Below, piece after piece: positions 10,132 to 29,173 of a stretch of DNA of 64,000 nucleotides. The stretch is from assembly GCF_946480385.1 (NCBI RefSeq), contig NZ_CAMLJP010000009.1, positions 1 through 64,000 on the forward strand, written 5' to 3'. Below the pieces are notes generated by a model. The model was not told where the DNA came from. It did not search any database and saw only the letters and a program-made list of their open reading frames with translations. The position numbers and the translations under genes are program-made. This DNA is from an uncultured Azospirillum sp. (lineage in GTDB: Bacteria > Pseudomonadota > Alphaproteobacteria > Azospirillales > Azospirillaceae). Positions within the stretch are counted from its first letter, which is position 1. Every line of letters begins with the position of its first letter.

Positions 10132-11273
10132 GGCGCCATCTTATCGTCGGAGGTCAGTTGCAGCAGCCGTCCGGCCACCCGGTCGAGAGGCAGTTCCTCC
10201 ACGGCGCCGCCCAAGCGTACGGCGGTGCCCGGCATGCTGTGGATCACCGCCGTGGAGGCGTGTTCGGCTATGGTGTAGGCCCCCACCCGATGCATGTCCA
10301 CCAGTCCCCGCGCTCCGTCCTCTCCCATGCCGGTCAGCAGCACGCCGATGCCGGAGGCGCCATAGGCGCGCGCCATCGACTGGAACAGCACCTCGCCCGA
10401 CGGGCGCTGGCCGCACACCATCGGGTCGCCGGACAGGCGGATGGCGCCGTTGTCCACCAGCATGTGCCGGTCGCCGGGCGCCACATAGACCGTGCCGGGG
10501 CGCGGCTTCACCCCCGCCTCCCCCAGCTGCACCGGCAGCGGGGAGACGGTGCCGAGCCAATTGGCGAAGCCCTCCATGAAGGGGGCCCCCATATGCTGGA
10601 CCACGAAGACCGGCAGCGGAAAGCCGGCCGGCAGTTCCCTCAGGACTTTGGACAGCGCTGCCGGCCCGCCGGTGGAGGCGACGAGACCCAGCCCGCGGAA
10701 GCGGCGGATGCGGCCGTCGGCGGTCACCGCCGCCTCGGGCAAACCGCCGTCCGGGGATGCGGTTTCGCCGTTTGCACCGGGCGTGCGGGCGGCCCGCGCC
10801 GTGATGCGGTGGCGGATGACCTTCACCTGACTCATGATGACCAGCTGGGTGCAGAGATGGTGCGCCACCGTCTGGTAGTCGGCGCGCGCCATGCTGCCCG
10901 GCTTTTCCACCACCGCCAGGGCGCCGGCCTGCAGCGCCCGCATCGGGATGTCGAGGTCGCGCACGTCGGACGCCACCACGACGATCGGCAGCGGGGTCTG
11001 CCGCATGATGCGGCTGGTCACCTCGAAGCCGTCGATGCCCGGCAGGCGGATGTCGAGCGACACCACGTCGGGGGCGTTCTTCTCGATCATGCGCAGGGCC
11101 TGCTCGCCGCTGGAGGCGATGCCCGCCACCTCCAGCCGCGGATCGGCGCCGATGACATGGCTGAGCAGTTGCTGGATAACCGGACTGTCCTCCACCACCA
11201 GCACGCGGATACGACGGTGTCCGACGGTGGGATTTCCGACGGCGGGAGGTCCGGAGTGCGCCGCCCCGCTCAC
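10128..11273 (-). CDS. cheB: Chemotaxis-type protein-glutamate methylesterase CheB
   Basis: A 381-residue protein: receiver domain with Asp74 (SLDIRLPG), a linker rich in Ala/Pro, and a CheB methylesterase domain. The catalytic Ser is in VASTGGP, the His in VVQHMGAPF and the Asp in GMGEDGA. It would demethylate and deamidate glutamates of the neighbouring chemoreceptor, opposing CheR. I chose GTG 11273 because it overlaps the cheA TGA as GTGA and brings the receiver within 20 residues of the start; no ATG exists between the cheA stop and the receiver. The frame is open further upstream only as an overlap with cheA. Confidence 0.92.
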   Translation of the reverse strand: MSGAAHSGPPAVGNPTVGHRRIRVLVVEDSPVIQQLLSHVIGADPRLEVAGIASSGEQALRMIEKNAPDVVSLDIRLPGIDGFEVTSRIMRQTPLPIVVVASDVRDLDIPMRALQAGALAVVEKPGSMARADYQTVAHHLCTQLVIMSQVKVIRHRITARAARTPGANGETASPDGGLPEAAVTADGRIRRFRGLGLVASTGGPAALSKVLRELPAGFPLPVFVVQHMGAPFMEGFANWLGTVSPLPVQLGEAGVKPRPGTVYVAPGDRHMLVDNGAIRLSGDPMVCGQRPSGEVLFQSMARAYGASGIGVLLTGMGEDGARGLVDMHRVGAYTIAEHASTAVIHSMPGTAVRLGGAVEELPLDRVAGRLLQLTSDDKMAP

Positions 11274-13522
11274 AGCAGCCGCCGGATGCCGGCCAGAAGC
11301 TCGTTCTGGTCGAACCGCGTCTTGACGATGTAGGCGTCCGCCCCCAGCCGCAGGCCGCGCTCGCGGTCCTCGTCGCTGGCGCGCGAGGTGACGAGGATCA
11401 CCGGGATCTCCTCCAGCCGCTTGTCGGCCTTCACCGCCTGCAGCAGGGCGAAACCGTCCATCCGGGGCATCTCGACGTCGCTGATGATCAGGCCAACCTC
11501 CATCCCTTCCGAAAGGCGCTCCAGGGCCTCGCGCCCGTCCACGCACAGCGTCACCCGATAACCATGGGCTTCGAGGATGCTCTTTTCCAGCGTGCGGGTG
11601 GTGATGCTGTCATCGACGACCAGGATATGCGCCCGGGCAGGGGTAACCTCTTCCGCCGGGCGTGCCGGGGGCGGCAGGACGCTGCCGGGCAGCGGCATCA
11701 GGCCGGAGATGTTCAGCACCAGCGCCGGCCCGCCATCGTCCATCAGCACGGTGCCGAGATAGCGGCCGCTGTCGAGCCCGGTCTCCTCCGCCGCCGTCAC
11801 CACCGTCTCGCGCGTCGCGACGAAGCGGTCGACCGCCAGCGCCAGCCGCCGGTCGGCCGCGCGGACGACGACGAGCGACAGCGAACGCTCGGCGGTGGGC
11901 ACCACCGGCGCCTCCATGCCCAGCAGGGCGGCCAGCGAGGTGACGGGAATTTCCTCCTCGGCGATGCGGATCATCGGGGTGCCGACGCCGGAAAACAGCG
12001 TCTCGGCGGTGGCGGTGCGCAGCCGGACCACGTCGGCGGACGGGATCGCCAGGATCTGGTCCTGCACGGCGACAAAGACCAGACGCTGGCTGAGCAGGCT
12101 GAGCGGCACCTCGATGGTGACGGCGGTGCCGCCCTCCGGCCGGTCGGCGATGGTCAGGTTGCCCTGCAGCCGCTCCACCTCCCGCCGGGCGATGGCGAGG
12201 CCCATGCCGCGCCCGGCCAGTTCGGTGGTGCGCAACGCGGTGGAAAAGCCGGGGTGGAACAGGAACTCGGTCAGCCGCTCCAGCGGTATCTCTTCGGCGC
12301 CCGACAGCTCGTCGGCGTCGATCAGGCCGCGTTCGGCCGCCTTGCGCAGGATCGCCGCGCGGTCCAGCCCGCGGCCGTCATCCTCGATGCGCAGGCGCAG
12401 GCGGGAGCCTTCCACCGACGCGGCGATGGTGACGCGCGCCGCCGGCCGCTTGCCCAGCGCCAGCCGGTCCGCCGGCGTCTCGATGCCGTGGCTGATGGCG
12501 TTGCGGGCGATGTGGAGGATCGGGTCCTTCAGCCGCTGCAGGACGTTGCGGTCGGCCTCCACCTCCAGGCCGCGGACGTCGACCTCGACCTCCTTGCCCT
12601 CCGCCCGGCTGATGTCGCGCACCATGCGGCCGAGGCCGCTCAGTTGGTTTTCCGCCGGCAGCATGCGCAGGCGCCGCATGTCCTGCTGGAAGCCGCCGCC
12701 CCAGCGCCGCATCGACCACAGCAGCCGGTCATGGCTGCGGTGCGCGCTGTCGAGCGCGCCGCCCAGCGACCGGAAGCGGCGCTCGAAAGCCATCAGGGCG
12801 GGCAGCGCGCCGCGGCCGTCCAGCGCGTCGGCTCCATCCTCCGGCCGGACCTCCAGCCGGGCGCCGCGGCCGAGCTGCACGCGCAGATGCCGCCATGCGC
12901 GGTCGAGCGCCCGCCATTCCTGGCGCATCGCGCGGAGCTGCTCGCCGAGGCCGGCCTGCGCCTCCACCTCCGGCAGCAGGGCCGAGGCGGTTTCCGACAA
13001 ACGCTCCAGCCCCTGGGCGGCGATGCGGACCAGGGCTGCGGAATCGGCGTCGCCGGCGGGCTCGCGCTGGCGGGACGGACGGCTGCCGGCGGCGCGGGGG
13101 GGCGATGCCGGAGCGGGAGCGGGGGCCGGAGAGGGGCCGCCGCGACCGCCGGTGGCCAGCGCTTCGAGGTCGGCGAGCACGCCGGCCGTCTCCACCGCGC
13201 CGCCCCCCTGGAGCAACCAGGCGACCAGATCCTCGATGGCGTCGAGCGCGCGGCGGAACACGCCGACATTGGCGGCGTCGAGCGGGATTTCCCCCTTCTG
13301 CACGGCGATGAAGGCGGCTTCCAGCCGGTGGGAGATCGCCTCCACCTCCGGCAGGTCGACGGCGCGGGCGGCGCCCTTCAGGCTGTGGGCGCGCCGGTGA
13401 ATGTCGACGAGATCGGGCGCGTCGCCCGTCGCCTCCGCATCGCGAAGCGCGTTGCGGATCGCGGCGAGATGGTCCTTGTGCTCCAGGTCGAAGGCGGCGA
13501 GCAGGCGCTGGCGGATGTCCAT
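11270..13522 (-). CDS. cheA: Hybrid chemotaxis-type histidine kinase CheA-REC
   Basis: A 750-residue kinase with an HPt domain at the N-terminus (His46 in RRAHSLKGAAR), an Ala/Pro-rich linker near 130-155, dimerisation and HATPase domains (ILHIARNAISHGIE, EDDGRGLD, GRGMGLAI), a CheW-like domain, and a C-terminal receiver with Asp682 (ISDVEMPRMDG) and Lys at IVKT. CheA with a fused receiver is typical of Wsp/ACF and Che3 systems and not of the flagellar CheA-CheY pair; the receiver is often a phosphate sink. It lies 13 bases after the receptor gene and overlaps cheB. Receptor, couplers, methylation enzymes and regulator are all in the same operon. Confidence 0.93.
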   Translation of the reverse strand: MDIRQRLLAAFDLEHKDHLAAIRNALRDAEATGDAPDLVDIHRRAHSLKGAARAVDLPEVEAISHRLEAAFIAVQKGEIPLDAANVGVFRRALDAIEDLVAWLLQGGGAVETAGVLADLEALATGGRGGPSPAPAPAPASPPRAAGSRPSRQREPAGDADSAALVRIAAQGLERLSETASALLPEVEAQAGLGEQLRAMRQEWRALDRAWRHLRVQLGRGARLEVRPEDGADALDGRGALPALMAFERRFRSLGGALDSAHRSHDRLLWSMRRWGGGFQQDMRRLRMLPAENQLSGLGRMVRDISRAEGKEVEVDVRGLEVEADRNVLQRLKDPILHIARNAISHGIETPADRLALGKRPAARVTIAASVEGSRLRLRIEDDGRGLDRAAILRKAAERGLIDADELSGAEEIPLERLTEFLFHPGFSTALRTTELAGRGMGLAIARREVERLQGNLTIADRPEGGTAVTIEVPLSLLSQRLVFVAVQDQILAIPSADVVRLRTATAETLFSGVGTPMIRIAEEEIPVTSLAALLGMEAPVVPTAERSLSLVVVRAADRRLALAVDRFVATRETVVTAAEETGLDSGRYLGTVLMDDGGPALVLNISGLMPLPGSVLPPPARPAEEVTPARAHILVVDDSITTRTLEKSILEAHGYRVTLCVDGREALERLSEGMEVGLIISDVEMPRMDGFALLQAVKADKRLEEIPVILVTSRASDEDRERGLRLGADAYIVKTRFDQNELLAGIRRLL

Positions 13523-13535
13523 CAGGGGCTCCGCA

Positions 13536-15224
13536 TCACACCTGATAGTTCCGCACCGCCTCGACCAGCCCCTGGCCGAGGTTGTTCAGATTGGCGGCGG
13601 CGCCTTCCAGCTGGCGGGTGCCGGCGGCGGTCTGGCTGCTGGCCTCGCGGATGTTCTGCAACGCCTGGATCACCTGCTCCAGGCCGATCTGCTGCTGGTT
13701 GGTGCCGGCGACGATCTGCTGGAAGGCGAGCACGCTCTCCTGGATGTTCTCCGCCATGGTGCGGATGGTCGACTGGGTGGCGTCGGTCTGGCGCTTGCCG
13801 GCGGCGACGCGCTTCACCGCCTCCTCCGTCAGCATGACCGAGGCGTTGATGCCGTGCTGGATCTCCGACAGGTTGGAGCGGACCTGGGCGGTCGCCTCCT
13901 TCGACTGGTCGGCGAGGCTCTTGATCTCGCCCGCCACGATGGAGAAGGTGCGGCCATGCTCGCCCGCCGCCGCCGCCTCGATGGCGGCGTTCAGCGCCAG
14001 CAGGTGGCAGCGCTCGGCGATGTCGTTGACCGTCACGATGATCTCGCCGATCGCCTGGGTGCGCTCCGACAGCATGACGATGTTCTCGGCCACCGCCTCC
14101 GCCTGTTCGCGGATGGCGTCCATCGCCTGGATGGTGTCGTCCACCGCCTTCATGCCGGAATGGCTGGAGGCCGCCACCGTCTGGGCGCCGTGCGAGACGT
14201 CCTGGGCGCGGCGGTTGATCTGGGCGCCGGATTCGGTGATCTCCGACAGGGTCGCCGTGGTCTGCTCCACCGCCGCCAGCTGTTCGGCGACGCTGGCCGA
14301 CTGCTGCTGGGTCGAAGCGCGGATCTGGGCGGTGGCGGCGTGGACGCTCTCCGCCGTCTCGCGGGTGGTGCGGGCCATCGACTTCAGCCGGCCGGCCATC
14401 TCGTTCAGATGCTGGCCGAGGATCGCCAGCTCGTCCTTGCCGGCGATGGCGATCTCCTGGGTCAGGTCGCCGTGGCCGACCCTGGTGACGAAGTCGATGG
14501 CGCGGCCGAGCCGCCGGGTGATCGAGCTGCCGATCAGATAGGCGACCCCCACCGCGATCAGGAAGACGACGACCAGCGCGATGATCGAGGACTGGATGGC
14601 GGAGTTGTAGATCGACCGGATGTCGGCGCGGCCGGCCTTGGTCAGGTGGTCGATGGCGGTCTGGGCCTGATCGATCCGCGCCTCCATGTTCTTGCGCAGT
14701 TCGTCCACCCGCTGGCGGCGCAACAGCGCCTCGGCGATCTGGTTGCGTTCGAGCATGGTGTAGATCGTCCGCGCCTCGTCACCGACCATGGTGATGGCGC
14801 GGGACATCTCGTTCACCGCGGTGTCCAGCTCGACCCAGCCCCGGCGGCGGCTGTCGGTGACGCCGGTGGAGGAGCGCTCCGCCACCATCGCCCGCAGCTG
14901 GCCCAGCCGGTCGCGCAATTGGGCGCCGACCTCGTCGTAATGGCGGCGCAGCGGTGCCAGCAGCGCCGGGATTTCGGCGACCCGGCCTTCGGCATTGGCG
15001 ATGGACACGGCGTTCAGCGCCGTCTCGCGCGTGCTGCGCAGCTCCGCCTGCATGTTGCCGACGTCCGTCACCATGTCGGCGGCCTCGTTGTCGTAGGTCG
15101 ACACCGCCATGATGACGTCCAGCGCATCGGAAAAGCGCGACATCTGATAGAGCGCCAGCAGCGCCGTCAGGACACAGACGACGCCGAATCCCAGGACCAG
15201 CTTGTGCGCGACTTTCATGTTCAT
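13536..15224 (-). CDS. Methyl-accepting chemotaxis-type receptor (MCP)
   Basis: A 562-residue membrane receptor. A transmembrane helix at about 8-30 starts right after a basic Lys-Val-Ala-His-Lys, and a second is near 190-210. The ~160 residues between form a periplasmic helical (four-helix-bundle-like) sensor. A HAMP domain follows (RRLGRAIDFVTRVGHGDLTQ), then a long MCP signalling coiled coil with the hairpin tip near NDIAERCHLLALNAAIEAA and AGEHGRTFSIVAGEIKSLA. No C-terminal pentapeptide tether is visible. The start could be ATG 15224 or 15218 (MNMK). It sits between the cheW and cheA genes, so it is the dedicated input of this chemosensory array; the signal is unknown. Confidence 0.92.
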   Translation of the reverse strand: MNMKVAHKLVLGFGVVCVLTALLALYQMSRFSDALDVIMAVSTYDNEAADMVTDVGNMQAELRSTRETALNAVSIANAEGRVAEIPALLAPLRRHYDEVGAQLRDRLGQLRAMVAERSSTGVTDSRRRGWVELDTAVNEMSRAITMVGDEARTIYTMLERNQIAEALLRRQRVDELRKNMEARIDQAQTAIDHLTKAGRADIRSIYNSAIQSSIIALVVVFLIAVGVAYLIGSSITRRLGRAIDFVTRVGHGDLTQEIAIAGKDELAILGQHLNEMAGRLKSMARTTRETAESVHAATAQIRASTQQQSASVAEQLAAVEQTTATLSEITESGAQINRRAQDVSHGAQTVAASSHSGMKAVDDTIQAMDAIREQAEAVAENIVMLSERTQAIGEIIVTVNDIAERCHLLALNAAIEAAAAGEHGRTFSIVAGEIKSLADQSKEATAQVRSNLSEIQHGINASVMLTEEAVKRVAAGKRQTDATQSTIRTMAENIQESVLAFQQIVAGTNQQQIGLEQVIQALQNIREASSQTAAGTRQLEGAAANLNNLGQGLVEAVRNYQV

Positions 15225-15270
15225 TCTTGGACTCCAGCCCCGGACGGCTCTTCAGGTGGATCGGTCGATG

Positions 15271-15963
15271 TCAGGTCTTCACGAGGTCGAGCAGTGCCGC
15301 CATGTCCAGGATCGCCATGCGGTCGGCGGCGATGGCCCTGACCAACGGCCCGGCCTCCGCCGGGGCGGAGCCGCGCGGCGGCACGATGTCGGACACCCGC
15401 TCCACCTCCCGCACGCGCAGGGCCGCCGGGCGGCCGGCGCCGGTGCGCAGCACGATGGCGTAGCCGGACGGATCGGGCTCGGCAGCGGCCCCGGAAAGAG
15501 CGGCGGATACACTGGCCGCCGGGCCATTGCACAGCCGGTCGAGGTCGAACAGCCGCATCACCCGGCCGGCGACGGCGATCACCCCCAGCACGGCGGGCGG
15601 CGCCCCCGGCACGCGGGCCAGCCGCGGCATCGGTACGATATGGCCGAGATGGCGCAGTTCCAGCCCATAGAGCGTTTCGGCCCCGCGGGCGACCAGCATC
15701 GGGACGCCGGCGCTCTCCTCCCCGTGGAGTTGCGGGATTTCGGCCAGATCCTCGGCACGGTGGGCCAGCACCGCGTCGGCCCAGGGGCCGCGCCCGGCGA
15801 AGGTCGCCTCCAGGTCGGCGTTGCGGCGTGCCAGCTTCCTGTGGACATCGTTCCAGTCGATGGAAGCACGGGCGGCGGCGCGCTCGGGGGAAGCGCTTTC
15901 AAGGGCGGCGATCAGCGGTGCGGCACCTGCTCCACTTCCCGCACCGGCAAGCGTGTCGTCCAT
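15271..15963 (-). CDS. cheW: CheW-type coupling protein (second copy)
   Basis: A 230-residue protein with an N-terminal extension of ~80 residues, then a CheW/SH3-like domain (VPMLVARGAETLYGLELRHL, PAVLGVIAVAGRVMRLFDL, PAALRVREVERVSDIV). It would link the receptor to the CheA hybrid. The ATG at 15963 overlaps the cheR stop as TGATG, so it is translated right after CheR. Wsp-type systems carry two CheW proteins (WspB and WspD), and this cluster has two as well. The N-terminal extension is unusual for CheW and may bring a further contact; its fold is not recognised. Confidence 0.85.
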   Translation of the reverse strand: MDDTLAGAGSGAGAAPLIAALESASPERAAARASIDWNDVHRKLARRNADLEATFAGRGPWADAVLAHRAEDLAEIPQLHGEESAGVPMLVARGAETLYGLELRHLGHIVPMPRLARVPGAPPAVLGVIAVAGRVMRLFDLDRLCNGPAASVSAALSGAAAEPDPSGYAIVLRTGAGRPAALRVREVERVSDIVPPRGSAPAEAGPLVRAIAADRMAILDMAALLDLVKT

Positions 15964-17390
15964 CAGCCCTCCTCACCGGTCAGCCAGAGGTCGAGCATGC
16001 CGCGCAGTTCCTGCACGGTCAGGCCGCCGCCCTCCGCCACCGCCTCGTCGTCGGGACGGTTCTCCAGCGCCTCGCGCGCATTGCGGAAATGGCGCTGGGC
16101 CGGGACCAGCCGGCCGCGCCGCCAATAGGCCAGCGCCAGATGATAGTCGGCCAGAACGAAGCGCGGGTCGAGATACAGCGCGCGCTTGAAAGCCGCCACC
16201 GGGTCGCCGACGCCCAGCTCCTCCTCCACCAGACCCAGCTGGTAATGGGCGCCGGGGTCCAGCCGGTTCGCCTCCACCTGGGCCAGACAGGTTTCCAGAA
16301 CGGTCGAGCGCTCGTTGGTCTCGGCGGTGTCCGGCGGGGTCGGCGCGGCGGGAGGCGTCGCGGCCGGCGCGACTTTGCGGGAGCGCGGAGCGGGGCGGAC
16401 GGCGGGATCGGGCGCGGCGTCCGGCGCCGGGCCAAGCGCGCGGCGGGACTTGAACATGGGTGCCGCCGCCGCCGGGCCGGGGGGCGTGCCACGATCCGCC
16501 GCAGCCGGGGCCGCCTGTTCGGCCTGCTTGCGGTAGAGGGTGGCGCCGGGAACCGAGACCGGAATGAACAGCTCGTTCATCTGCGGACCGGCCTCGGCAT
16601 GGCCGACCACCAGCCAGCCGCCGTCGGCCAGCGCCTTGTGCAGGTTGCCCAGCAGCCGGTGCCGCGTCGCCTCGTCGAAATAGATCATGACGTTGCGGCA
16701 CAGGATGATGTCGAAATGCCCGATCCCGTGCGGATAGGAGGGGATCGCCCCGTCCACGAGGTTGAAGGGCATGAAGCTGGTCCATTGCCGGAATTTCGGC
16801 TTTACCGACCACAGCTTGTCCTGGCGGTCGAAGCAGGCCTCCAGCGTTTCCGGCGACAGGCCGCGCACCGCCCAGTCGCCATAGGCGCCGCGCCGCGCCT
16901 GTTCCAGGAAGGCGCCGTTGATGTCGGTGCCGACGATGTGGACCTGCCAGCCTTCCAGCTGGGCGGCGAAATGCTGCTTCAGCAGGATTTCGAGCGTGTA
17001 GGCCTCCGGCCCGATGGAGCAGCCGGCGCTCCAGACCCGCAGCAGGCGGCTCGACTGGTTGCGGCGCAGGCATTCGGGGATGGCGACGGCGCGCAGCGCG
17101 TCGAACTGCTCGATGTAGCGGAAGAAGAAGGTCTCTCCTACCGCCAGCTCGTTGATGAGGCCCTGATACTCGGTGCCGGTCGGGCCTTCCGCCTCCAGGG
17201 CCGCGAGATAGCCGGCGACCGTGGTGATGCGGCCGAAGGGCAGCCGGCGGTTGATCCGCTCGGCGAAGGCGGAATCCTTGTCGGCGTAATAGGCGAGCCC
17301 GGTGGCGTCGATCACCATCGCCTTCAGGCGCGGGAAATTCGGATCGCGGCGGATCGCCTCGATCCCGGCGGCGGCGGCGTTCGGCATCAT
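15963..17390 (-). CDS. cheR: CheR-type methyltransferase with TPR C-terminus (WspC-like)
   Basis: 475 residues. The N-terminal ~275 residues are a CheR S-adenosylmethionine methyltransferase: VGETFFFR, the SAM-binding SAGCSIGPEAYTLEI, and FDIILCRNVMIYFD. A low-complexity Ala/Pro-rich linker follows (about 285-375), and the C-terminus holds helical TPR-like repeats (HYQLGLVEEELG, ADYHLALAYWRRG). CheR fused to TPRs is the WspC/FrzF arrangement. The start at ATG 17390 overlaps the upstream cheW stop (ATGA). The enzyme would methylate the cluster's receptor to set its sensitivity. A longer reading from 17435 is open but would overlap cheW. Confidence 0.9.
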   Translation of the reverse strand: MMPNAAAAGIEAIRRDPNFPRLKAMVIDATGLAYYADKDSAFAERINRRLPFGRITTVAGYLAALEAEGPTGTEYQGLINELAVGETFFFRYIEQFDALRAVAIPECLRRNQSSRLLRVWSAGCSIGPEAYTLEILLKQHFAAQLEGWQVHIVGTDINGAFLEQARRGAYGDWAVRGLSPETLEACFDRQDKLWSVKPKFRQWTSFMPFNLVDGAIPSYPHGIGHFDIILCRNVMIYFDEATRHRLLGNLHKALADGGWLVVGHAEAGPQMNELFIPVSVPGATLYRKQAEQAAPAAADRGTPPGPAAAAPMFKSRRALGPAPDAAPDPAVRPAPRSRKVAPAATPPAAPTPPDTAETNERSTVLETCLAQVEANRLDPGAHYQLGLVEEELGVGDPVAAFKRALYLDPRFVLADYHLALAYWRRGRLVPAQRHFRNAREALENRPDDEAVAEGGGLTVQELRGMLDLWLTGEEG

Positions 17391-17992
17391 GCGGCACCGT
17401 CCCCGGAGGGGGCCGCGTCCCGGGAGTGCTGCCACTGCGCCAGCCTGCGCTCCGCCACGGCACGGAAGGCGTCGAGCAGCCGGCCTTCCGCCTCGCTGAG
17501 CAGCCGGTCGGGGTCGAGCAGGGTCACCGTGCCGCCGCGGCCGGTCATCCGGTCCGGAAAGGCGCCGGCGGCACAGCCGTTGAAGGTCAGCGACGGGTCG
17601 GAGGGGGTGCGCTCGGCAGGATCGACCACGGTGTCGCCATGGACCCGGTCGGCCAGCAGCGCCGTCGGCCGGCCCTGCCAGGTGACGAGAAACAGCGGCG
17701 AATAGAGGTTCGGCTCGGCGGCCTCAGCGGCAAGATCCAGCAGCACGTCCAGGCGCAGGACCGGCACCACCTCCCCCTGATAGCGGAAAACGCCCTCCAC
17801 CGGCAGCGGCGCCGTCGGCAGCCGGTCGAGACGCGGCAACGGCAAAAAACGCCGCACGGACTCCACCGGCAGCGCCAGCGCCCGGCCGGCAACCGAAAAC
17901 ACGACGCAACGGAATGGCGACGGGGTGGAGGCAGTTTGCGCAGGGTTTGGTGACATCCGTCCGTCGATGGTCTGGAATCCGACCGGGAACAT
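17387..17992 (-). CDS. cheW: CheW-type coupling protein (first gene of the chemosensory operon)
   Basis: About 201 residues from ATG 17992, or 189 from ATG 17956; neither start has a strong ribosome-binding site. A CheW domain runs from CVVFSVAGRALALPVESV to the middle (EGVFRYQGEVVPVLRLDVL, WQGRPTALLADRVHGDTVV), followed by a short helical tail. It is the first gene of the minus-strand operon and is divergent from the MaoC gene, so the operon promoter should lie in 17993-18140. The N-terminal MFPVGF... segment before the CheW fold is short and probably unstructured. Confidence 0.85.
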   Translation of the reverse strand: MFPVGFQTIDGRMSPNPAQTASTPSPFRCVVFSVAGRALALPVESVRRFLPLPRLDRLPTAPLPVEGVFRYQGEVVPVLRLDVLLDLAAEAAEPNLYSPLFLVTWQGRPTALLADRVHGDTVVDPAERTPSDPSLTFNGCAAGAFPDRMTGRGGTVTLLDPDRLLSEAEGRLLDAFRAVAERRLAQWQHSRDAAPSGDGAA

Positions 17993-18627: not shown

Positions 18628-19560
18628 TCAGGCCCGCGCAGCCAGGGTGCGGATCGCCAGCGCGGCGGCGGAGGCGCGGTTTTCCACCCCCAGCTTGGCG
18701 AAGACCTGTTCCAGGTGCTTGTTCACCGTGCGCGGACTGATGCCCAGGATCTCGCCGATGTCGCGGTTGGGCTTGCCGTTGGCGATCCACAGCAGAACCT
18801 CCGCCTCGCGCGCGGTCAGGCCGAGGGCGTCGCGCAGGACCGCCTCCTGCCGGCCGGCCGTCGGCTCGCTGAGGCGGAACAGGTATTCGTCGGGGTTGGC
18901 CGGGCTGAGATAGGTGAACTCCAGCCGCCGCACGCCCTCGCCGTCCGGCAGGTCCAGCGTGAAGGTCTCCGCCGAGGCGCCGGGGGACGAGGACTGCCGC
19001 AGCCGGACCAGCCCGGCGGCCAGGGACGACGCCGCTTCGGGGCGCACGCCGTCGGGGCCGGGCAGCAGGCCGCTCAACAGCCGCTCCGCCTGCGGGGTGC
19101 ACCACAGCAGCCTGCCCTCCCCGTCCGTCGCCAGCAGGAAGCGGCCGGTGGCGTCGAGCGCGGCGCGGGCGCCGTAGGCGACGCGGGCGTTGGTCAGGTG
19201 GACGCGGATGCGGGCGATCAGCTCGTCCACCACGATCGGCTTGGTGACGTAATCGACGCCGCCGGCCTCCAGCCCCTTCACCACATGCTCGGTGTCGCTG
19301 AGGCCGGTCATGAAGATGACGGGGATGTGCGACAGGTGGGGGATCTGCTTCAGTCGCCGGCAGGTCTCGAAGCCGTCCAGGCCGGGCATCACCGCGTCCA
19401 TCAGGATCAGGTCCGGCGTGATCTGGCCGACGAGGTCAAGCGCGCTCTCGCCGTCGACGGCGACCAGCACGGTCAGGTCGGCCTGTTCGATGGCCTCCGT
19501 CAGGAATCCCAGCGTGTCGGGGGTGTCGTCCACCACCAGGATCATGTCGCGGCGCTTCAT
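18628..19560 (-). CDS. LuxR/NarL-type response regulator paired with the permease kinase
   Basis: 310 residues: a receiver domain (Asp11-Asp12, phospho-acceptor Asp55 in LILMDAVMPG), a middle PAS-like segment (about 135-230, FLLATDGEGRLLWCT), and a C-terminal LuxR helix-turn-helix (LTAREAEVLLWIANGK, SPRTVNKHLEQVF). The ATG overlaps the kinase stop (ATGA, 19557-19560), which makes it the cognate partner of the NCS1-permease histidine kinase. It should bind DNA as a phosphorylated dimer. Targets are unknown; the divergent DUF1636 gene upstream of the kinase is the nearest candidate. Confidence 0.92.
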   Translation of the reverse strand: MKRRDMILVVDDTPDTLGFLTEAIEQADLTVLVAVDGESALDLVGQITPDLILMDAVMPGLDGFETCRRLKQIPHLSHIPVIFMTGLSDTEHVVKGLEAGGVDYVTKPIVVDELIARIRVHLTNARVAYGARAALDATGRFLLATDGEGRLLWCTPQAERLLSGLLPGPDGVRPEAASSLAAGLVRLRQSSSPGASAETFTLDLPDGEGVRRLEFTYLSPANPDEYLFRLSEPTAGRQEAVLRDALGLTAREAEVLLWIANGKPNRDIGEILGISPRTVNKHLEQVFAKLGVENRASAAALAIRTLAARA

Positions 19561-22500
19561 CCCGTCACGGCCCCATCTTCCGCCAGATCATCTTCCGCTC
19601 GATCATTGTCGCTCTGCGCGGCGTCGCGCTGCGCCGCCGCCTCTTCCACCACACGCATATAGCCTTTCAGGTCGAAGGCGCGCACCAGCGTTCGCAGCCG
19701 CTCGACGAATGGCAGGGCGGCGACGTCCTCCGCCTCGATCTCGCGCAGCTTGGCCTCGATCCCGCGAATATAGCCGATCCGGCCAAGCTGGCGCAGGTCG
19801 TCGAGATGACGCAGCGCCGACTCCGGCGGGTGATTGGACGGCTGGGGTGCTTGATCGGCCGGCGCGGGCGGCGGGGCAAGCGGTTCCGCAGCTTTTTCCT
19901 GCTTTTCCGGCGCGTGGATCCATTCCAGCCCGGTCAGCGCCTGCAAACGGTCGAGCAGCGCATGGATTTCGATGGGCTTGGCGACGAAGGCGTCGTGCGG
20001 CGCCCGGCCGTCGCCCGGTCCCTGCGCCTCGTAGGCGTTGGCGGAGACCATGATGATGCGGATGCGGTCGGCGAACTGCCGGCGCAGTTCCTCCGCCACG
20101 TCCCAGCCGCTCTCGCCGGGCATCGAGATGTCGAGCATGGCGACGTCGGGCTTGCACTGTGCCGCCAGCTCCAGGCAGGTGGCGGCGTCGGACGCGGTGA
20201 ACAGCACGAACCCCAGCGGGCGCAGGATGTCGGTCATCAGCGCCAGATGATCGCGGTCGTCGTCGGCCAGCAGGATGGTGATCTGCGGCCCGGCATAGCC
20301 GGTGATGGCGCGGCGCTCCACCTGCTCACCCGGCCGGTGCATCGCCTCCGACAGCAGCAGGCGGACGGTGAAGACGCTGCCCCGCCCGGCTTCGCTGCGC
20401 ACCGCGATGTCGCCGCCCATGATCCGGGTCAGCACCCGCGTGATGGTCAGGCCGAGACCGGTGCCGGCCACCGCCCGCACCGCCGCGCCCCGCCCGCGCT
20501 CGAACGGTTCGAAGACGCGGTCGAGGTCCTCCGCCCGGATGCCGATGCCGCTGTCGGCGATCTCGAACTCGGCGATCTGGCTGCGGTAGCGGACGGTCAG
20601 GGCGACATGGCCGCTCTCGGTGTATTTTACCGCGTTGGACAGCAGGTTGATGAGAATCTGGCGCAGGATCTTGCTGTCGGTGTGGACCCAGGCCGGCAGA
20701 TGCGGCACGCGGGCATAGCGGAACTCCAGCCCCTTGGCCGTGGCCTGGATGCGGAACATGTCGGCCAGCTGGTCGAGGAAGTCGATCAGCTGCACCTTGT
20801 CGCGGCTGAGCCGGCGCAGGCCCGATTCGATCTTGGAGATGTCGAGCAGCCCGTCGATCAGGTTCGACAGATGCTCCGCGCTGCGGCGGATGACGCGGAC
20901 GGCGTCCTGCGGGCGCTGGGTGCTGTTGCTCTCCAGAAGCTGGGCATAGCCGGAGATGGCGTTCAAGGGCGCGCGGATCTCGTGGCTGACACCGATGATG
21001 TAGCGGCTCTTGGCGGCGTTGGCGGCCTCCGCCACCTCCTTGGCCTTCTGGAGCGCGGCGTCGGTGCGTTCGTGGGCGGCGATCTCGTCCATCAGCATGG
21101 CGGTCTGGCGGCCGGTCTCCTCCTCCGCCTTGCGGCGGCTTTCATGGGCCAGCACCAGGAGCCAGGCGGCGACGCCGGACAGGATGAACAGGCAGACGAA
21201 GACGGTGACCAGCGCCGTGTGGATCGCTGCCCGCTCCACCGCCTCGGCATTGGCGTACTGGAAGTCGATGACCAGCAGCACCCCGCCCAGCACCAGCGAG
21301 AACAGCGTCATCACCCCGATGAAATGGCCGGTGCGGGTGTGGACCCCGGCGGCCATGCGCTTGGGCAGGACCCGTTGCAGGCTGTGGGCGATCTGGTCGG
21401 CGAAGCGGCTGTCGGTCTTGCACAGATCGTGGCAGCGCGCCTCCAGCGTGCAGCAGAGCGAGCAGATCGGCGCGTCATAGGCCGGGCAGAAGGCCATGTC
21501 CGGCCGTTCGAAATGGTTCTCGCAGATCGAACAGCGGACGGTCGCGCCCTCGCCGGGCAGGGGATCGGACTTGCGGGCGATGTAATAGCGGCCCCCGGTC
21601 CGCCAGGCGATCAGCGGGGCGGTGGCGAAGGCGACGACCAGCCCGATGAAGGGGGCCAGCGCCTGGGCCACCGGGCCGAGAAGCCCGAAGAAGGCGGTGG
21701 TGGAACACAGCACCGACAGCCCCATGGCGCCGGTGCCGACCGGGTTGATGTCGTAGAGGTGGGCGCGCTTGAACTCGATCCCCGGCGGGCTGAAGCCGAG
21801 AGGCTTGTTGACCGCCAGATCGGCGGCGACGGCGCCCAGCCAGCCCACCGCGACGTTGGCGTAGAGGCCGAGGATGCTCTCGATCACGCCGAGGATGCCG
21901 ATTTCCATCAGCAGCAGGGCCAGCAGCACGTTGAACACCAGCCAGACGACGCGGCCCGGATGGCTGCGGGTCAGGCGGGAGAAGAAGTTCGACCAGGCGA
22001 TGGAGCCGGCATAGGCGTTGGTGACGTTGATCTTCATCTGGCAGACGACGACGAAGATGCCGGTCAGCGCCAGCGCCGCGGCGGGGGAGCCGAACACGTC
22101 GAGGAAGGCCATGTGGTACATGCCGTTGGGCTGCACCGCATCCTCCGCCGGCATGCCGTGCTTAATGGCGAGAAAGGCCAGCAGCGACCCCGCCGCCAGT
22201 TTCAGGCTGCCGATCACCACCCAGCCCGGCCCGCCGGCCAGCAGCGCCGCCCACCAGCGCACCTTGCCGATGCGGGACTGCGAGGGCAGGAAGCGCAGAT
22301 AGTCCACCTGCTCGCCGATCTGCGGCAGCAGCGAGAGCAGGACCGAGGCGGCCATGCCGAAGGGCAGCAGCGACAGCCCGCCGTCGGGGGCGTAGACGCC
22401 GGGCAGCGAGGTCCATTGCGCCAGGGTGTCGCGGTCGAGCAGGAAGAAATAGGCCAGCGGCACGCATTGCAGCAGGATCCACACCGGCTGCGTCGCCCAT

Positions 22501-23024
22501 TGCATGCGGCTGATGAAGCGGATGCCATAGACGGCGATGGGGATCACCGCCAGCGAACTGATGACATGGGCGACAGAGGCCGGGATGCCCAGCACCATGG
22601 TCAGCCCGGCCGACATGATGCTGGCCTCGATCGAGAACAGGATGAAGGTGAAGGAGGCGTAGACCAGCGAGGTGATGGTGGAGCCGAGATAGCCGAAGCC
22701 GGCGCCGCGGGCCAGCAGGTCGATGTCCACCCCGGCCTTGGCCGCGTGATAGGTGATCGGCAGCCCGACGATGATGCTGAGAACCGCCACCGCCAGGATG
22801 GCGGCCATGGCGTTCTCGAAGCCGTAGGTCAGGGTGACGGCGGCGCCCAGCGCCTCGCAGGCCAGGAAGGAGATGGCGCCGAGCGCGGTGTTGGCGACCC
22901 GCCACGCGCTCCAGCGCCGCGCCCGCTCCGCCGTGTAGCGGAGCGCATAGTCCTCCAGCGTCTGGTCGGCGGCGAGCTGGTTGTATTGCCGGCGTTCACG
23001 GACGATCCGTTGCCTCGCGCTCAT
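19557..23024 (-). CDS. NCS1-permease-like membrane domain fused to hybrid histidine kinase
   Basis: About 1155 residues. Residues ~40-490 are a multi-pass membrane domain resembling the cytosine/purine NCS1 transporters (about 12 hydrophobic segments; GFGYLGSTITSLVYASFTF, VNVTNAYAGS-like KINVTNAYAGSIAWSNFF). A Cys-rich segment at 497-536 (CSICENHF, CPAYDAPICSLCC, CHDLCK) could hold zinc or an Fe-S cluster. Two more transmembrane helices (~565-630), a coiled linker and HisKA with His681 (SHEIRAP) follow, then HATPase_c (LINLLSNAVKYT, GLGLTITRV), a receiver with Asp965 (LDISMPG) and a C-terminal helical tail of ~145 residues. ATG 23024 is preferred; 23066 is possible. It probably senses the import or binding of a nucleobase-like or related small molecule (inferred by analogy with transporter-kinase fusions such as CbrA). 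Confidence 0.88.
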   Translation of the reverse strand: MSARQRIVRERRQYNQLAADQTLEDYALRYTAERARRWSAWRVANTALGAISFLACEALGAAVTLTYGFENAMAAILAVAVLSIIVGLPITYHAAKAGVDIDLLARGAGFGYLGSTITSLVYASFTFILFSIEASIMSAGLTMVLGIPASVAHVISSLAVIPIAVYGIRFISRMQWATQPVWILLQCVPLAYFFLLDRDTLAQWTSLPGVYAPDGGLSLLPFGMAASVLLSLLPQIGEQVDYLRFLPSQSRIGKVRWWAALLAGGPGWVVIGSLKLAAGSLLAFLAIKHGMPAEDAVQPNGMYHMAFLDVFGSPAAALALTGIFVVVCQMKINVTNAYAGSIAWSNFFSRLTRSHPGRVVWLVFNVLLALLLMEIGILGVIESILGLYANVAVGWLGAVAADLAVNKPLGFSPPGIEFKRAHLYDINPVGTGAMGLSVLCSTTAFFGLLGPVAQALAPFIGLVVAFATAPLIAWRTGGRYYIARKSDPLPGEGATVRCSICENHFERPDMAFCPAYDAPICSLCCTLEARCHDLCKTDSRFADQIAHSLQRVLPKRMAAGVHTRTGHFIGVMTLFSLVLGGVLLVIDFQYANAEAVERAAIHTALVTVFVCLFILSGVAAWLLVLAHESRRKAEEETGRQTAMLMDEIAAHERTDAALQKAKEVAEAANAAKSRYIIGVSHEIRAPLNAISGYAQLLESNSTQRPQDAVRVIRRSAEHLSNLIDGLLDISKIESGLRRLSRDKVQLIDFLDQLADMFRIQATAKGLEFRYARVPHLPAWVHTDSKILRQILINLLSNAVKYTESGHVALTVRYRSQIAEFEIADSGIGIRAEDLDRVFEPFERGRGAAVRAVAGTGLGLTITRVLTRIMGGDIAVRSEAGRGSVFTVRLLLSEAMHRPGEQVERRAITGYAGPQITILLADDDRDHLALMTDILRPLGFVLFTASDAATCLELAAQCKPDVAMLDISMPGESGWDVAEELRRQFADRIRIIMVSANAYEAQGPGDGRAPHDAFVAKPIEIHALLDRLQALTGLEWIHAPEKQEKAAEPLAPPPAPADQAPQPSNHPPESALRHLDDLRQLGRIGYIRGIEAKLREIEAEDVAALPFVERLRTLVRAFDLKGYMRVVEEAAAQRDAAQSDNDRAEDDLAEDGAVTG

Positions 23025-23173: not shown

Positions 23174-23563
23174 ATGACCGTCGAGCTTGTCGTTTGCGAA
23201 ACCTGCCGCCGGCCGGAGGACCCGCCCGAAGCCACGCGGCCGGGGGCGGAGCTGGTGGCGCTGATGGAGCGGGCGCTGGCCGACCAGCCCGATCTGGCCG
23301 CGCAGGTGCGGCTGCGGCCGATGCGCTGCCTGATGAGCTGTCGGCGCCCTTGTGCCATCGCCGTGCGCTCCGCCGCCCGGATGAGCTATGTGCTGGGCGA
23401 TTTCGCCCCGGACGAGATGACGGTGGAGACGCTGACCGCCTACCTGCGCGCCTATGCCGCCACCGATGACGGGATCGTTCCGTTCAAGCAATGGCCGCAG
23501 GGCGTCAAGGGTCGTTTCGTTTCCCGACTCCCGCCAATGGAGGAGCCGGACGGACGGGTTTGA
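23174..23563 (+). CDS. DUF1636 small cysteine-rich protein
   Basis: 129 residues from ATG 23174. Five cysteines are arranged as Cys8-x2-Cys11 (VCETCR) near the start and Cys52-x3-Cys56-x3-Cys60 (RCLMSCRRPC) in the middle, fitting the DUF1636 family. This looks like a ferredoxin-like/thioredoxin-like small metal-binding protein. Family members are often found near cobalamin or metal-homeostasis genes, but none are visible here. It is divergent from the permease-kinase gene with 149 bases between, so the two may share a regulatory region. Function is not known. Confidence 0.82.
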   Translation: MTVELVVCETCRRPEDPPEATRPGAELVALMERALADQPDLAAQVRLRPMRCLMSCRRPCAIAVRSAARMSYVLGDFAPDEMTVETLTAYLRAYAATDDGIVPFKQWPQGVKGRFVSRLPPMEEPDGRV

Positions 23564-26377: not shown

Positions 26378-26812
26378 CTATTGCCGTTTCTGCATGACGA
26401 AGGTCAGGCGCTTCATCAGGTCGGCCTTCGACACCGGCTTCACCAGATAGCCGGAGATGCCGTAGGCGATGGCGCGCTTCACCACATCCGCCTCGCGGTG
26501 GCCGGTCAGCACCAGCACCGGCAAGTCGGCCAGCGGGTTGCCGGTGGCGGTGCGCAGGGCGTGCAGCAGGTCCAGCCCGGTCATCCGCGGCATTTCCAGG
26601 TCGCAGATCACCACGTCGACGTCCTCGCCGTTCTTGCGCAGGATGTCGAGCGCCTGGACGCCGTCCGCAGCCTCGAACACCGTCCGCAGCCCGATGTCGT
26701 GCAGCAGCCGGTAGATCAGCTTGCGGGTGAAGTCGTCGTCCTCGACCAGAAGCACACCGAGATCGTGTATCGTCCGGACCTGGCGGGTCCGTCCGCCTGC
26801 CTCCACCACCAT
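26378..26812 (-). CDS. Stand-alone CheY-like receiver protein
   Basis: 144 residues, a single receiver domain with a short N-terminal extension. Asp25-Asp26 and neighbouring acidic residues, phospho-acceptor Asp71 (VICDLEMPRMTG), Thr in LVLTGH and Lys in LVKPVS are all present. It has no output domain. It is divergent from a large hybrid histidine kinase with an HPt domain across 222 bases containing a 13-bp inverted repeat, and is probably that kinase's phosphorelay partner. The pairing is inferred from position. Confidence 0.88.
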   Translation of the reverse strand: MVVEAGGRTRQVRTIHDLGVLLVEDDDFTRKLIYRLLHDIGLRTVFEAADGVQALDILRKNGEDVDVVICDLEMPRMTGLDLLHALRTATGNPLADLPVLVLTGHREADVVKRAIAYGISGYLVKPVSKADLMKRLTFVMQKRQ

Positions 26813-26871: not shown

Positions 26872-27034
26872 GTTTTCTGGATGTATTGTTGCGCAGTCGT
26901 TAACGGAATCGCCATTGCCGGACCGCAGGCACACGGATCCCGCCGTCGGGGAATGGCAATCGGGCACACAACGGCCTATCCTTGCCATCCGCCGCAAGGC
27001 CGGCCCCACCGAACCGATCAGGACCGTTCCCCCC

Positions 27035-29173
27035 GTGACCGCGTCACCCGCCGCTCCCCTGTCCCCCTTCGGCAGTTCGCCCGATGCGGCGATGCTCGCC
27101 GCCGTGGTGGAGGCCAGCGGCGGCGGCATCGCCGTGTCCGACGCCACCCTTCCCAACCACCCCATCGTCTATTGCAACCGCGCCTTCCTGGAGATGGTCG
27201 GCTATGCGTCCGACGAGGTGATCGGCCAGGACGGCAGCTTCCTGCAGGGGCCGGGCACCGATCCGGAAACGGCGGCGGCGATCCGCACCGCCCTGGCCGA
27301 GGTCAGGCCCCTGTCGGTGGAGGTGCTGAATTACCGCAAGGACGGCACCGCCTTCTGGAACGCGCTGAGCCTGCGGCCGGTGCCGGGGCCAGGGGAAGGG
27401 TCCGATGGGCAGGCGCGCTGGATCGCCGCCTCCTGCGCCGACGTCACCCACAGCCGCCGGTCGCAGGAGGAGCTGCGCGCCGCCGAGGAGCAGCTGACCA
27501 GGCTGGCGGCCGAGACCTTCGCCCTGGCCGAGAAGCTGGACGGCGCGCGGGAGGAGGCGGAGGCCGCCCGCATCGCGGCGGAGAACGCCAGCCGCGCCAA
27601 GTCGCGGTTCCTGGCGATGATGAGCCACGAGCTGCGCACGCCGATGAACGCGGTGATCGGCATGGGCGACCTGCTGATGGGCACCGGGCTGAACGACCAG
27701 CAGAAGGCCTTCGTCAAGACGCTGCGCTCGTCGGCCGACACGCTGATGACGATCCTGAACGACGTGCTCGACTTCTCCAAGATCGAGGCGGGGCAGTTGA
27801 CGCTGGAGGAGATCGACTTTTCGCTGCCCCGGCTGGTGGAGGACGTGGTCCAGCTGTTCCTGGTGCGGGCGGCGGCCAAGGGACTGAGCCTGTCCGCCTC
27901 CATCGCCGAGGACACGCCGCGCCACATCCGCGGCGACCCGACCCGGCTGCGGCAGGTGCTGTTCAATCTGGTGTCCAACGCCATCAAGTTCACCGACCGC
28001 GGCGCCATCGAGATCGCCGTGTGGTCGCCGGATCCTCCCGCTGGCCCTCCGGCCGACTCGGCGGACGCCCCGGCCGCGCCGGATGGCCCCGTCACCCTGC
28101 GGTTCGAGGTGCAGGACAACGGCATCGGCATGACGGCCGAGCAGCGCGCCCGTCTGTTCGACGCCTTCGTCCAGGCCGACGTGTCGACCAGCCGAAAATA
28201 TGGCGGCACCGGCCTGGGGCTGGCGATCTGCAAGCGGCTGGTGGAGGCGATGGGCGGCGAGATCACCGTCGCCAGCATGCCGGGCCGCGGCTCCACCTTC
28301 CGCTTCTCGATCCGCAGCCGGCTGGCGGAGGCGCAGCCGGCCCCCGACCTCGGTTCCCGGCCGGCCCTGTCGGCGGCGGAGATGCCGGAACCGACGCGGG
28401 TGCCGCTGCGGCTTCTGCTGGCCGAGGACAACGACATCAACCGCATGCTGATCGTCGCCATGATGACCCGCATCGGCCACCAGATCGACGCGGTGACCGA
28501 TGGGCGGGCGGCGCTGGCCACGGTCACGGCGGCCGATTACGACGCGCTGATCCTGGACATGGAAATGCCGGTGCTGGACGGCCGGTCGACGGCGCGGGCG
28601 ATCCGCCGGATGGACGGGCCGGTGGCGCGCATCCCCATCGTCGGCCTGTCGGCCGACGCCCTGCCGGAGCATCGCGACGGCCACATGGCCGCCGGGCTGG
28701 ACGCCTATCTGACCAAGCCGATCGACTGGGACCAGCTGAACGCCGTGCTGATCGATCTGGCGACCCGGCCGCAGGACGGGCGCGTCGTGCCGATGCCCAG
28801 CCGCCCGGCGCTGGAAGGCAGCCAGTTCTCGGCATTGCCGCTGGTCGACCGGGTCAAGCTGGCGGAGCTGCGGCTGGCGCTGGGCGGCGAGGCCTTGGAC
28901 GGCATGCTGCTGCTGCTGCCGGAGACGGCCCTGCGCGAGCTGACGGCGATCCGCTCCGCCCTGCAGGCCGGCCGGCCGAAGGAGCTGAAGCAGGCGGCCC
29001 ACACGCTGACCGGGCTGGCCGCCAATTTCGGCGCCCCCCGCATGGCCGCCATCGCCCGTGCCATCAACGACAGCCCGGCCGACACCGAGAAGGTCGCGGC
29101 ATTGCTGCCGCTTCTGGAAACCACCGTCGCCGCCACCAGCAGCTTGGTGCGCGAACCGGCAGGAGGGGATTGA
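27035..29173 (+). CDS. Hybrid histidine kinase with LOV-like sensor lacking the photoactive cysteine
   Basis: About 712 residues from GTG 27035 (AGGA at 27020-27023); TTG 26915 would add 40 residues. The order is a LOV-type PAS (about 20-130), a coiled coil, HisKA with His198 (MMSHELRTP), HATPase_c (LVSNAIKFT, DNGIGM, GTGLGLAI), a receiver with Asp508 (LILDMEMPVLDG), and a C-terminal HPt with His656 (AAHTLTGLAA). The sensor keeps the LOV hallmarks FLQGP, LNYRKDG and FWN, but the GRNCRFLQ motif reads GQDGSFLQ, so Gly67 replaces the cysteine that forms the flavin adduct. It is soluble. It probably binds flavin but cannot run the usual photocycle; redox or semiquinone signalling is possible. Confidence 0.88.
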   Translation: MTASPAAPLSPFGSSPDAAMLAAVVEASGGGIAVSDATLPNHPIVYCNRAFLEMVGYASDEVIGQDGSFLQGPGTDPETAAAIRTALAEVRPLSVEVLNYRKDGTAFWNALSLRPVPGPGEGSDGQARWIAASCADVTHSRRSQEELRAAEEQLTRLAAETFALAEKLDGAREEAEAARIAAENASRAKSRFLAMMSHELRTPMNAVIGMGDLLMGTGLNDQQKAFVKTLRSSADTLMTILNDVLDFSKIEAGQLTLEEIDFSLPRLVEDVVQLFLVRAAAKGLSLSASIAEDTPRHIRGDPTRLRQVLFNLVSNAIKFTDRGAIEIAVWSPDPPAGPPADSADAPAAPDGPVTLRFEVQDNGIGMTAEQRARLFDAFVQADVSTSRKYGGTGLGLAICKRLVEAMGGEITVASMPGRGSTFRFSIRSRLAEAQPAPDLGSRPALSAAEMPEPTRVPLRLLLAEDNDINRMLIVAMMTRIGHQIDAVTDGRAALATVTAADYDALILDMEMPVLDGRSTARAIRRMDGPVARIPIVGLSADALPEHRDGHMAAGLDAYLTKPIDWDQLNAVLIDLATRPQDGRVVPMPSRPALEGSQFSALPLVDRVKLAELRLALGGEALDGMLLLLPETALRELTAIRSALQAGRPKELKQAAHTLTGLAANFGAPRMAAIARAINDSPADTEKVAALLPLLETTVAATSSLVREPAGGD

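Follow-up and report, generated by a model that had tools for sequence, protein, structure and literature searches.

A hybrid histidine kinase with an NCS1-fold input domain, a predicted sensor of urea and short-chain amides in Proteobacteria

Introduction

What does a permease do at the front of a histidine kinase? The question is raised by a gene on a 64,000-nucleotide stretch of DNA from an uncultured Azospirillum sp. (assembly GCF_946480385.1, contig NZ_CAMLJP010000009.1, positions 1 to 64,000), which is referred to here as the window. To our knowledge, only a few transporter–kinase fusions are known, and how they signal is not settled. The original prediction, made from the sequence and its open reading frames, saw in this gene an NCS1-type permease and a hybrid histidine kinase joined by a cluster of cysteines, considered the combination unusual, and suggested nucleobases or hydantoins as ligands to be tried, together with a possible redox or metal input at the cysteines. 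The comparisons described below bear out the architecture and point to a different ligand: judged from sequence and gene context, the protein is probably the sensor kinase of a two-component system that responds to urea and short-chain amides, its permease domain having presumably turned receptor. Statements taken from the literature refer to the passages of the cited papers that were available.

Results

Domain architecture and partner regulator

The features of the locus are collected in Table 1. The kinase reading frame, on the minus strand, opens with an ATG at 23024 and closes with a stop at 19557, and the ATG of the regulator gene overlaps this stop by four bases (ATGA); the two genes are therefore very likely co-transcribed. 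HisKA, HATPase_c and receiver domains were found with their motifs (Pfam and motif check), which places the protein among the hybrid sensor histidine kinases. The Pfam scan gave no PAS or other cytoplasmic sensor domain in the kinase, and no match at all in its first 495 residues even at E 10. Against named kinase families, the kinase and receiver part scored 255.1 bits with TorS (TIGR02956; cut-off 676.5) and 217.7 bits with the NahK/ErcS type (NF041832; cut-off 400), below the cut-off in both cases and with the NCS1 half unmatched. Elsewhere in the window, a DUF1636 gene (23174–23563, plus strand) is divergent from the kinase, and a stand-alone receiver (26378–26812, minus strand) lies beside a PAS-HisKA-HATPase-receiver-Hpt hybrid kinase (26915–29173, plus strand).

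Table 1. Features of the kinase–regulator locus; positions are those of the window.
Feature	Position	Strand	Basis
Hybrid sensor histidine kinase with NCS1-fold input domain, 1155 aa	19557..23024	-	ORF, Pfam, profile and fold comparison
NCS1-fold permease/receptor domain, residues ~22-480	21585..22961	-	AF2 model, Foldseek against CodB and Mhp1, hhalign, residue map
Lys331, invariant, at the Na2 position of the NCS1-fold domain	22032-22034	-	hhalign and residue map
Eight-cysteine module, residues 498-535, CxxC-x11-C-x7-CxxCC-x5-CxxxC	21420..21533	-	47/47 invariant
Two extra helices between cysteine module and kinase, residues ~564-625	21150..21335	-	AF2 secondary structure, conservation
HisKA dimerisation/phosphoacceptor domain, residues 673-735, SHEIR motif from 680	20820..21008	-	Pfam PF00512, motif
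HATPase_c catalytic domain, residues 783-891, N/G1/F/G2 boxes all found	20352..20678	-	Pfam PF02518, motifs
Receiver domain, C-terminal, residues 917-1027	19944..20276	-	Pfam PF00072, motifs
Partner response regulator, receiver and LuxR-type HTH, 310 aa	18628..19560	-	Pfam, junction

NCS1 fold of the N-terminal half

Identification of the N-terminal half as an NCS1 domain required profile–profile and fold comparison. The kinase gave no direct match to PF02133 (NCS1) at E values up to 10, and a profile of 31 relatives retrieved no NCS1 chain from the PDB sequences, with weak matches only (CRIPT, E 0.64; zinc finger protein, E 3.3). By hhalign, homology to NCS1 transporters extended across the full domain (E 8.1e-27 over 375 columns), the stand-alone permease of locus L044 served as a bridging intermediate, and the AF2 model was found by Foldseek to have the Mhp1/CodB fold, a comparison that the original prediction had proposed. 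Together with the Pfam assignments, these results confirm the predicted fusion through a cysteine-rich module, and also its distinctness from SSS-type transporter–kinase fusions, the transporter part being of the NCS1 type.

Residues were mapped onto CodB with hhalign, and their roles in CodB were taken from PMC9379551. In 47 relatives the position of the stacking residue Trp108 is occupied by Phe (34) or Leu (13) and that of its partner Phe204 by Leu (46) or Met (1), and the position of Gln105 is Thr. The Na2 ligands Thr278/Thr279 are replaced by Lys331/Ile332, invariant in 47/47. Stand-alone NCS1 permeases were compared in 28 rows, after seven of 35 had been removed as wrong reading frames: Trp occurs at 108 in 25, an aromatic residue at 204 in 16 and Thr at 279 in 13, so that this last feature varies across the NCS1 family, and the nearest stand-alone permeases also carry a basic residue at the Na2 position (Arg in L044, L046 and L047; Lys in L045). 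Since both the Na2 and the stacking positions vary among stand-alone permeases, their replacement is no mark of sensing. The Arg216/Tyr285 pair of CodB is retained as R244/Y338 and Asp213 as D241, all invariant (47/47), and Asn280 of CodB TM8 is retained as N333. The kinase family consequently shares fold and full-length profile alignment with Mhp1 and CodB, and differs from them in the replaced stacking aromatics and Na2 threonines, in the fused kinase and in its clustering with urea and amide genes.

The closest stand-alone relative of the permease half (28% identity) is encoded at L044:5784-7439 (+), and may resemble the transporter ancestral to the sensor. Downstream of it lies a gene for an UrtA-like binding protein, which scored 225.8 bits with TIGR03407, below the cut-off of 492.75.

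Distribution of the family

The search for the same domain order across genomes showed that the architecture recurs across Pseudomonadota, and the fusion, which had been thought unusual, is instead widespread. In the protein search, 7997 of 8000 scored candidates passed E 1e-3; among the 120 matches listed, identity over the first 640 residues was 63–95%, the closest named relative among them being an Azospirillum protein (95%). A set of 299 evenly drawn Pseudomonadota genomes yielded matches in 42, of which 38 were counted as kinase carriers after exclusion of three genomes with weak matches to the NCS1 part only (G195, G039, G223) and one with a fragment (G237). In named genomes 578 places were confirmed, and the best 80 of them are spread over alpha-, beta- and gammaproteobacteria; alignment A2 took 46 of these 80 loci and alignment A3 took 39. 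The nearest genome compared, G001, carries an ortholog at 98% and, at locus L032, an fmdA-type paralog at 57%. Shorter relatives, with frames of 894 and 899 aa, occur at L040:6502-9183 and L042:6666-9362 without a LuxR neighbour; they lie near fmdA, have no urt match and form a separate long branch in the tree.

Cysteine module

The eight cysteines are invariant in the alignment of 47 relatives. In a 124-row alignment all eight were present in 122 rows; the two misses (L043, L130) are alignment faults, because the set is complete for L043 in alignment A1 and for L130 in alignment A2. The module itself gave 43 matches in 38 of the 299 genomes, the same 38 that carry the kinase, and among the genomes sampled it is confined to this kinase family. 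Comparison with zinc fingers (treble clef/cross-brace) gave a weak likeness. A redox or Fe–S cluster was also considered and found no support in the sequence comparisons; with eight invariant and weakly zinc-finger-like cysteines, nothing found here points to the redox input that had been envisaged.

Gene neighbourhoods and co-occurrence

Neighbour clusters were first obtained with a greedy gene caller and the counts were repeated with named seeds; identification covered the most frequent clusters. The 299-genome sample provided 43 full-strength loci, drawn regardless of context, and these contained the regulator (41), urtA (33), fmdA (30), amiE (15) and ureC (5), with any of urt, ureC or fmdA near the kinase in 39. 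The four others were L036, L048, L050 and L135, of which L050 and L135 are truncated by contig ends and L036 has a UrtA match at the extreme edge of the stretch examined. The 80 named loci contained the regulator in 77 cases and urt, ureC or fmdA in 73; several of the seven misses are short contigs, and L051 (22 kb) is a true miss, from an Azospirillum like the window. The loci include many near relatives (Bradyrhizobium), and the 43- and 80-locus sets may share species.

The usual order is urtABCDE-fmdA(-amiE), divergent from kinase and regulator, and urease genes accompany the kinase in sphingomonads, Hydrocarboniphaga and some others. The LuxR-type regulator is downstream on the same strand wherever it was counted (41/43 and 77/80 loci), in L099 at a distance of 1.3 kb. 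NCBIfam names assigned in representative loci were UrtA, UrtB, UrtC, UrtE, FmdA, aliphatic amidase and urease alpha. In the 299-genome set, FmdA exceeded its cut-off in 31, 30 of which are among the 38 kinase carriers (Fisher 9e-33), and matched at E 1e-3 in 52; UrtA exceeded its cut-off in 92, including 36 of the 38. Computationally, a regulatory link between the kinase system and the urt, ure and fmd genes is well supported.

Two further neighbours were observed. A gene family of about 430–473 aa without Pfam match often lies between urtA and the kinase (L053:2011-3429, L054, L055, L101, L112), and a gene for an RPWMISH/zinc-ribbon small protein (L109:2628-3068, -) is present in 21/43 and 47/80 loci, usually alongside fmdA.

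Palindrome upstream of urtA, kinase and fmdA

An 18-bp palindrome, ATACGTCA-NN-TGACGTAT, marks the urtA/kinase and fmdA promoters; its variant in Azospirillum is ATGKGKCA-NN-TGACGTAG. A symmetric weight matrix was trained on the regions upstream of the kinase in 79 loci with divergent urtA, 31 of which contain the dyad ATACG-N8-CGTAT (commonest dyad per shuffle at most 4, five shuffles). With this matrix 127 sites of at least 16 bits were found in 124 stretches (2.41 Mb, window included), and 2 when the 124 stretches were shuffled once; 75 of the 79 training loci have a site. Within 450 bp of gene starts, 54 sites were nearest to urtA and 47 to the kinase (101 together), and 16 were nearest to fmdA, these last being outside the training regions. 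The recognition helix of the regulator, SPRTVnKHLEqi, is conserved in 119 regulators including that of the window, and ATACGTCA-NN-TGACGTAT and ATGTGTCATTTGACGTAG are candidate sequences for its binding.

What carries the argument is the placing of sites ahead of urtA, ureA and fmdA, together with their weight-matrix scores. Pattern matches alone define no regulon, because whole-genome counts are near or below those of controls: G001 gave 52 matches per strand against 37 for the reversed pattern, the clade variant with up to three mismatches gave 102 places on both strands against 75, and the counts in eight further genomes were partly at or below control. With up to two mismatches the clade variant occurs at four places in G001, one of which is the site in the promoter of its second UrtA gene.

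Position 129 and pocket specificity

Residue 129, which occupies the place of CodB Trp108, is Phe in all 79 of the 79 fmdA-linked loci. Leu takes its place in 22 loci, all without a link to fmdA; among these are the whole window clade (17/17) and a group apart from it (L034, L036, L082, L157, L158). Among the positions that best separate the window clade, 56, 129, 328, 234 and 230 are at or beside pocket or helix-break positions of the CodB map, and 163, 164 and 153 are outside them. This correlation, which comprises few independent changes, suggests that the ligand binds in the permease pocket.

The window copy and other Azospirillum genomes

In the tree, for which 87 of 124 rows were used after near-copies had been dropped, the window copy is one of 16 rows that form a supported clade, in which the context is urease, urt or neither, and never fmdA. 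No match to urt, ureC or fmdA was found in the 64-kb window, nor any palindrome better than chance (the best scored 8.2 bits, and shuffled sequence reached 12.0), and the Azospirillum orthologs L048, L051 and L052 likewise have neither. Chemosensory-type genes, namely a CheA-like protein with receiver, MCP, CheR and CheW, are located close downstream (window 11270–17992, minus strand).

In G001 a 17.6-bit site stops 90 bp short of the start codon of a second UrtA gene, which shares a contig with the kinase at a distance of about 554 kb, and a 17.5-bit site ends 67 bp before the start of the urease gamma gene (ureA) on another contig; the gene preceding ureA had no NCBIfam match. Forty-five Azospirillum genomes were compared, all with this urtA and 25 with a window-type kinase. 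The urtA site is present in 25/25 genomes with this kinase (11.9–19.6 bits) and in 0/20 without it (best 3.9 bits), and it was unlinked to the presence of the fmdA-type kinase. The co-variation amounts to about one event, because it is a single state change on the urtA tree, and the stronger argument is that the site has been retained in the whole of the kinase-bearing clade. The kinase adjoins that urtA divergently in G302 and G349 and lies 4.5 kb away in G337, and the positions of kinase and urtA have therefore changed within the genus. In one Azospirillum locus (L302, G302:C3:476664-478578) the kinase gene was matched in three pieces, possibly by decay or assembly error.

Discussion

On the reading that we favour, an NCS1 permease was converted into a receptor that may still transport slowly. 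Urea from outside would settle in the old substrate pocket at the TM1 and TM6 breaks and shift the permease between states; in sister subfamilies formamide or acetamide would be the ligand instead of urea. The eight-cysteine module, the two helices and a coiled coil would relay the movement to the HisKA dimer, with a change in kinase activity, and phosphate would be transferred to the LuxR-type partner, which would bind the palindrome and switch on urtABCDE and urease, or urtABCDE and formamidase/amidase. The window copy, as a member of the urease/urt-type clade, would act in trans on target operons elsewhere in the genome.

The permease half need not be the sensor, because the transporter half of CbrA is reported to be non-essential for signal perception (PMC9100948). 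The urea and amide genes might be controlled by a kinase that reads nitrogen/carbon status or an internal cytoplasmic cue, its permease being an anchor or an independent transporter, and the coiled segment before the kinase domains is well enough conserved (0.67, as mean share of the commonest residue) to carry other inputs. However, permease half (0.71) and cysteine module (0.76) both exceed the following helices (0.45), where conservation is lowest among the segments compared, the residue at pocket position 129 varies with the linked enzyme, and the Pfam scan offers no cytoplasmic domain for such a cue, so that we hold this alternative to be unlikely. More weight, although still well below that of the favoured reading, with which it is compatible, can be given to a true transceptor whose NCS1 domain imports urea or amides usefully and signals by flux, as proposed for CbrA and histidine. 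Parts for alternating access appear to be retained in R244/Y338 and D241, and CbrA is reported to take up histidine (PMC13022988); yet the Na2 hydroxyls are lost, uptake by the sensor is unneeded because most loci encode a dedicated ABC urea importer next door, and in Ks-Amt5 a fused transporter is reported to bind without efficient transport (PMC8534201).

The absence of urt, ureC, fmdA and palindrome from the window, together with the chemotaxis-type genes nearby, would fit a copy that is remote from the urt genes and now serves another regulon, for example the chemosensory one; the unchanged recognition helix of the regulator and the distribution of the urtA site among Azospirillum genomes with and without the window copy make this quite improbable. 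Least credible of all is the nucleobase or hydantoin sensor with redox or metal input. It has the NCS1 fold and the eight invariant cysteines in its favour, but neither aromatic of the CodB base sandwich is kept (W108 is F/L, F204 is L), Gln105 is Thr, the most frequent identified conserved neighbours are urea and amide genes, and the cysteine module is weakly zinc-finger-like.

The urea/amide reading may be extended, tentatively, to the whole group: a Proteobacterial receptor family would have arisen from an NCS1 permease and become a urea and short-chain-amide sensor, with a lysine in the Na2 site, loss of the pocket aromatics and gain of an invariant Glu/Gln set. The eight-cysteine domain, specific to the family in the genomes sampled and probably binding two zincs, would be the piece that couples permease and kinase, and Phe or Leu at 129 would separate amide-type from urea-type members, ligand preference and regulated enzyme (formamidase or urease) changing together.

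The nearest known systems are the SLC5/STAC kinases CbrA, CrbS/MxtR and RpuS, which likewise join a LeuT-fold transporter domain to a (hybrid) histidine kinase and control uptake or use of a small nutrient, reported as acetate, histidine and pyruvate (PMC9100948; PMC5715377), in place of the urea and amide genes here. The partner regulator of CrbS and RpuS is LuxR-type (PMC9100948), as in the present family. They differ in having an SLC5/SSS transporter and a STAC linker, whereas the present kinase, whose transporter domain is not of the SLC5 type, has NCS1, the eight-cysteine module and two extra helices; the Pfam scan names no STAC domain (Pfam may hold no STAC model), and the cysteine module occupies its place. 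In Ks-Amt5 a transporter domain also serves as receptor before a histidine kinase for a reduced-nitrogen signal; this domain is Amt, not NCS1, and the cited passages mention no cysteine module (PMC5764959; PMC8534201). WelA of Sphingomonas was considered as a described member and ruled out, since it is given as 794 aa with two PAS domains and two transmembrane regions (PMC8921679).

The same locus, to go by the descriptions, appears in a Dechloromonas aromatica table that lists, in the part available, a 1131-aa histidine kinase, a 308-aa receiver and UrtA with no function (PMC2907700), and in Ectopseudomonas guguanensis, where urtABCDE is reported with LuxR-type two-component genes (PMC13296017). 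A search of the open-licence literature, a scope outside which most subscription papers lie, found no functional description of the NCS1–kinase family.

The family is common across Pseudomonadota and has been missed by Pfam. If the interpretation given here is true, a further fold, after SLC5 and Amt, is used for sensing in transporter–kinase fusions. Testable predictions follow for the ligand (urea, formamide, acetamide), for the regulon (urt, ure, fmdA, amiE) and an operator of 18 bp, for a residue that sets specificity and for a coupling domain of a new kind, and nitrogen-cycling bacteria of soil and sea would have a dedicated sensor for the use of environmental urea.
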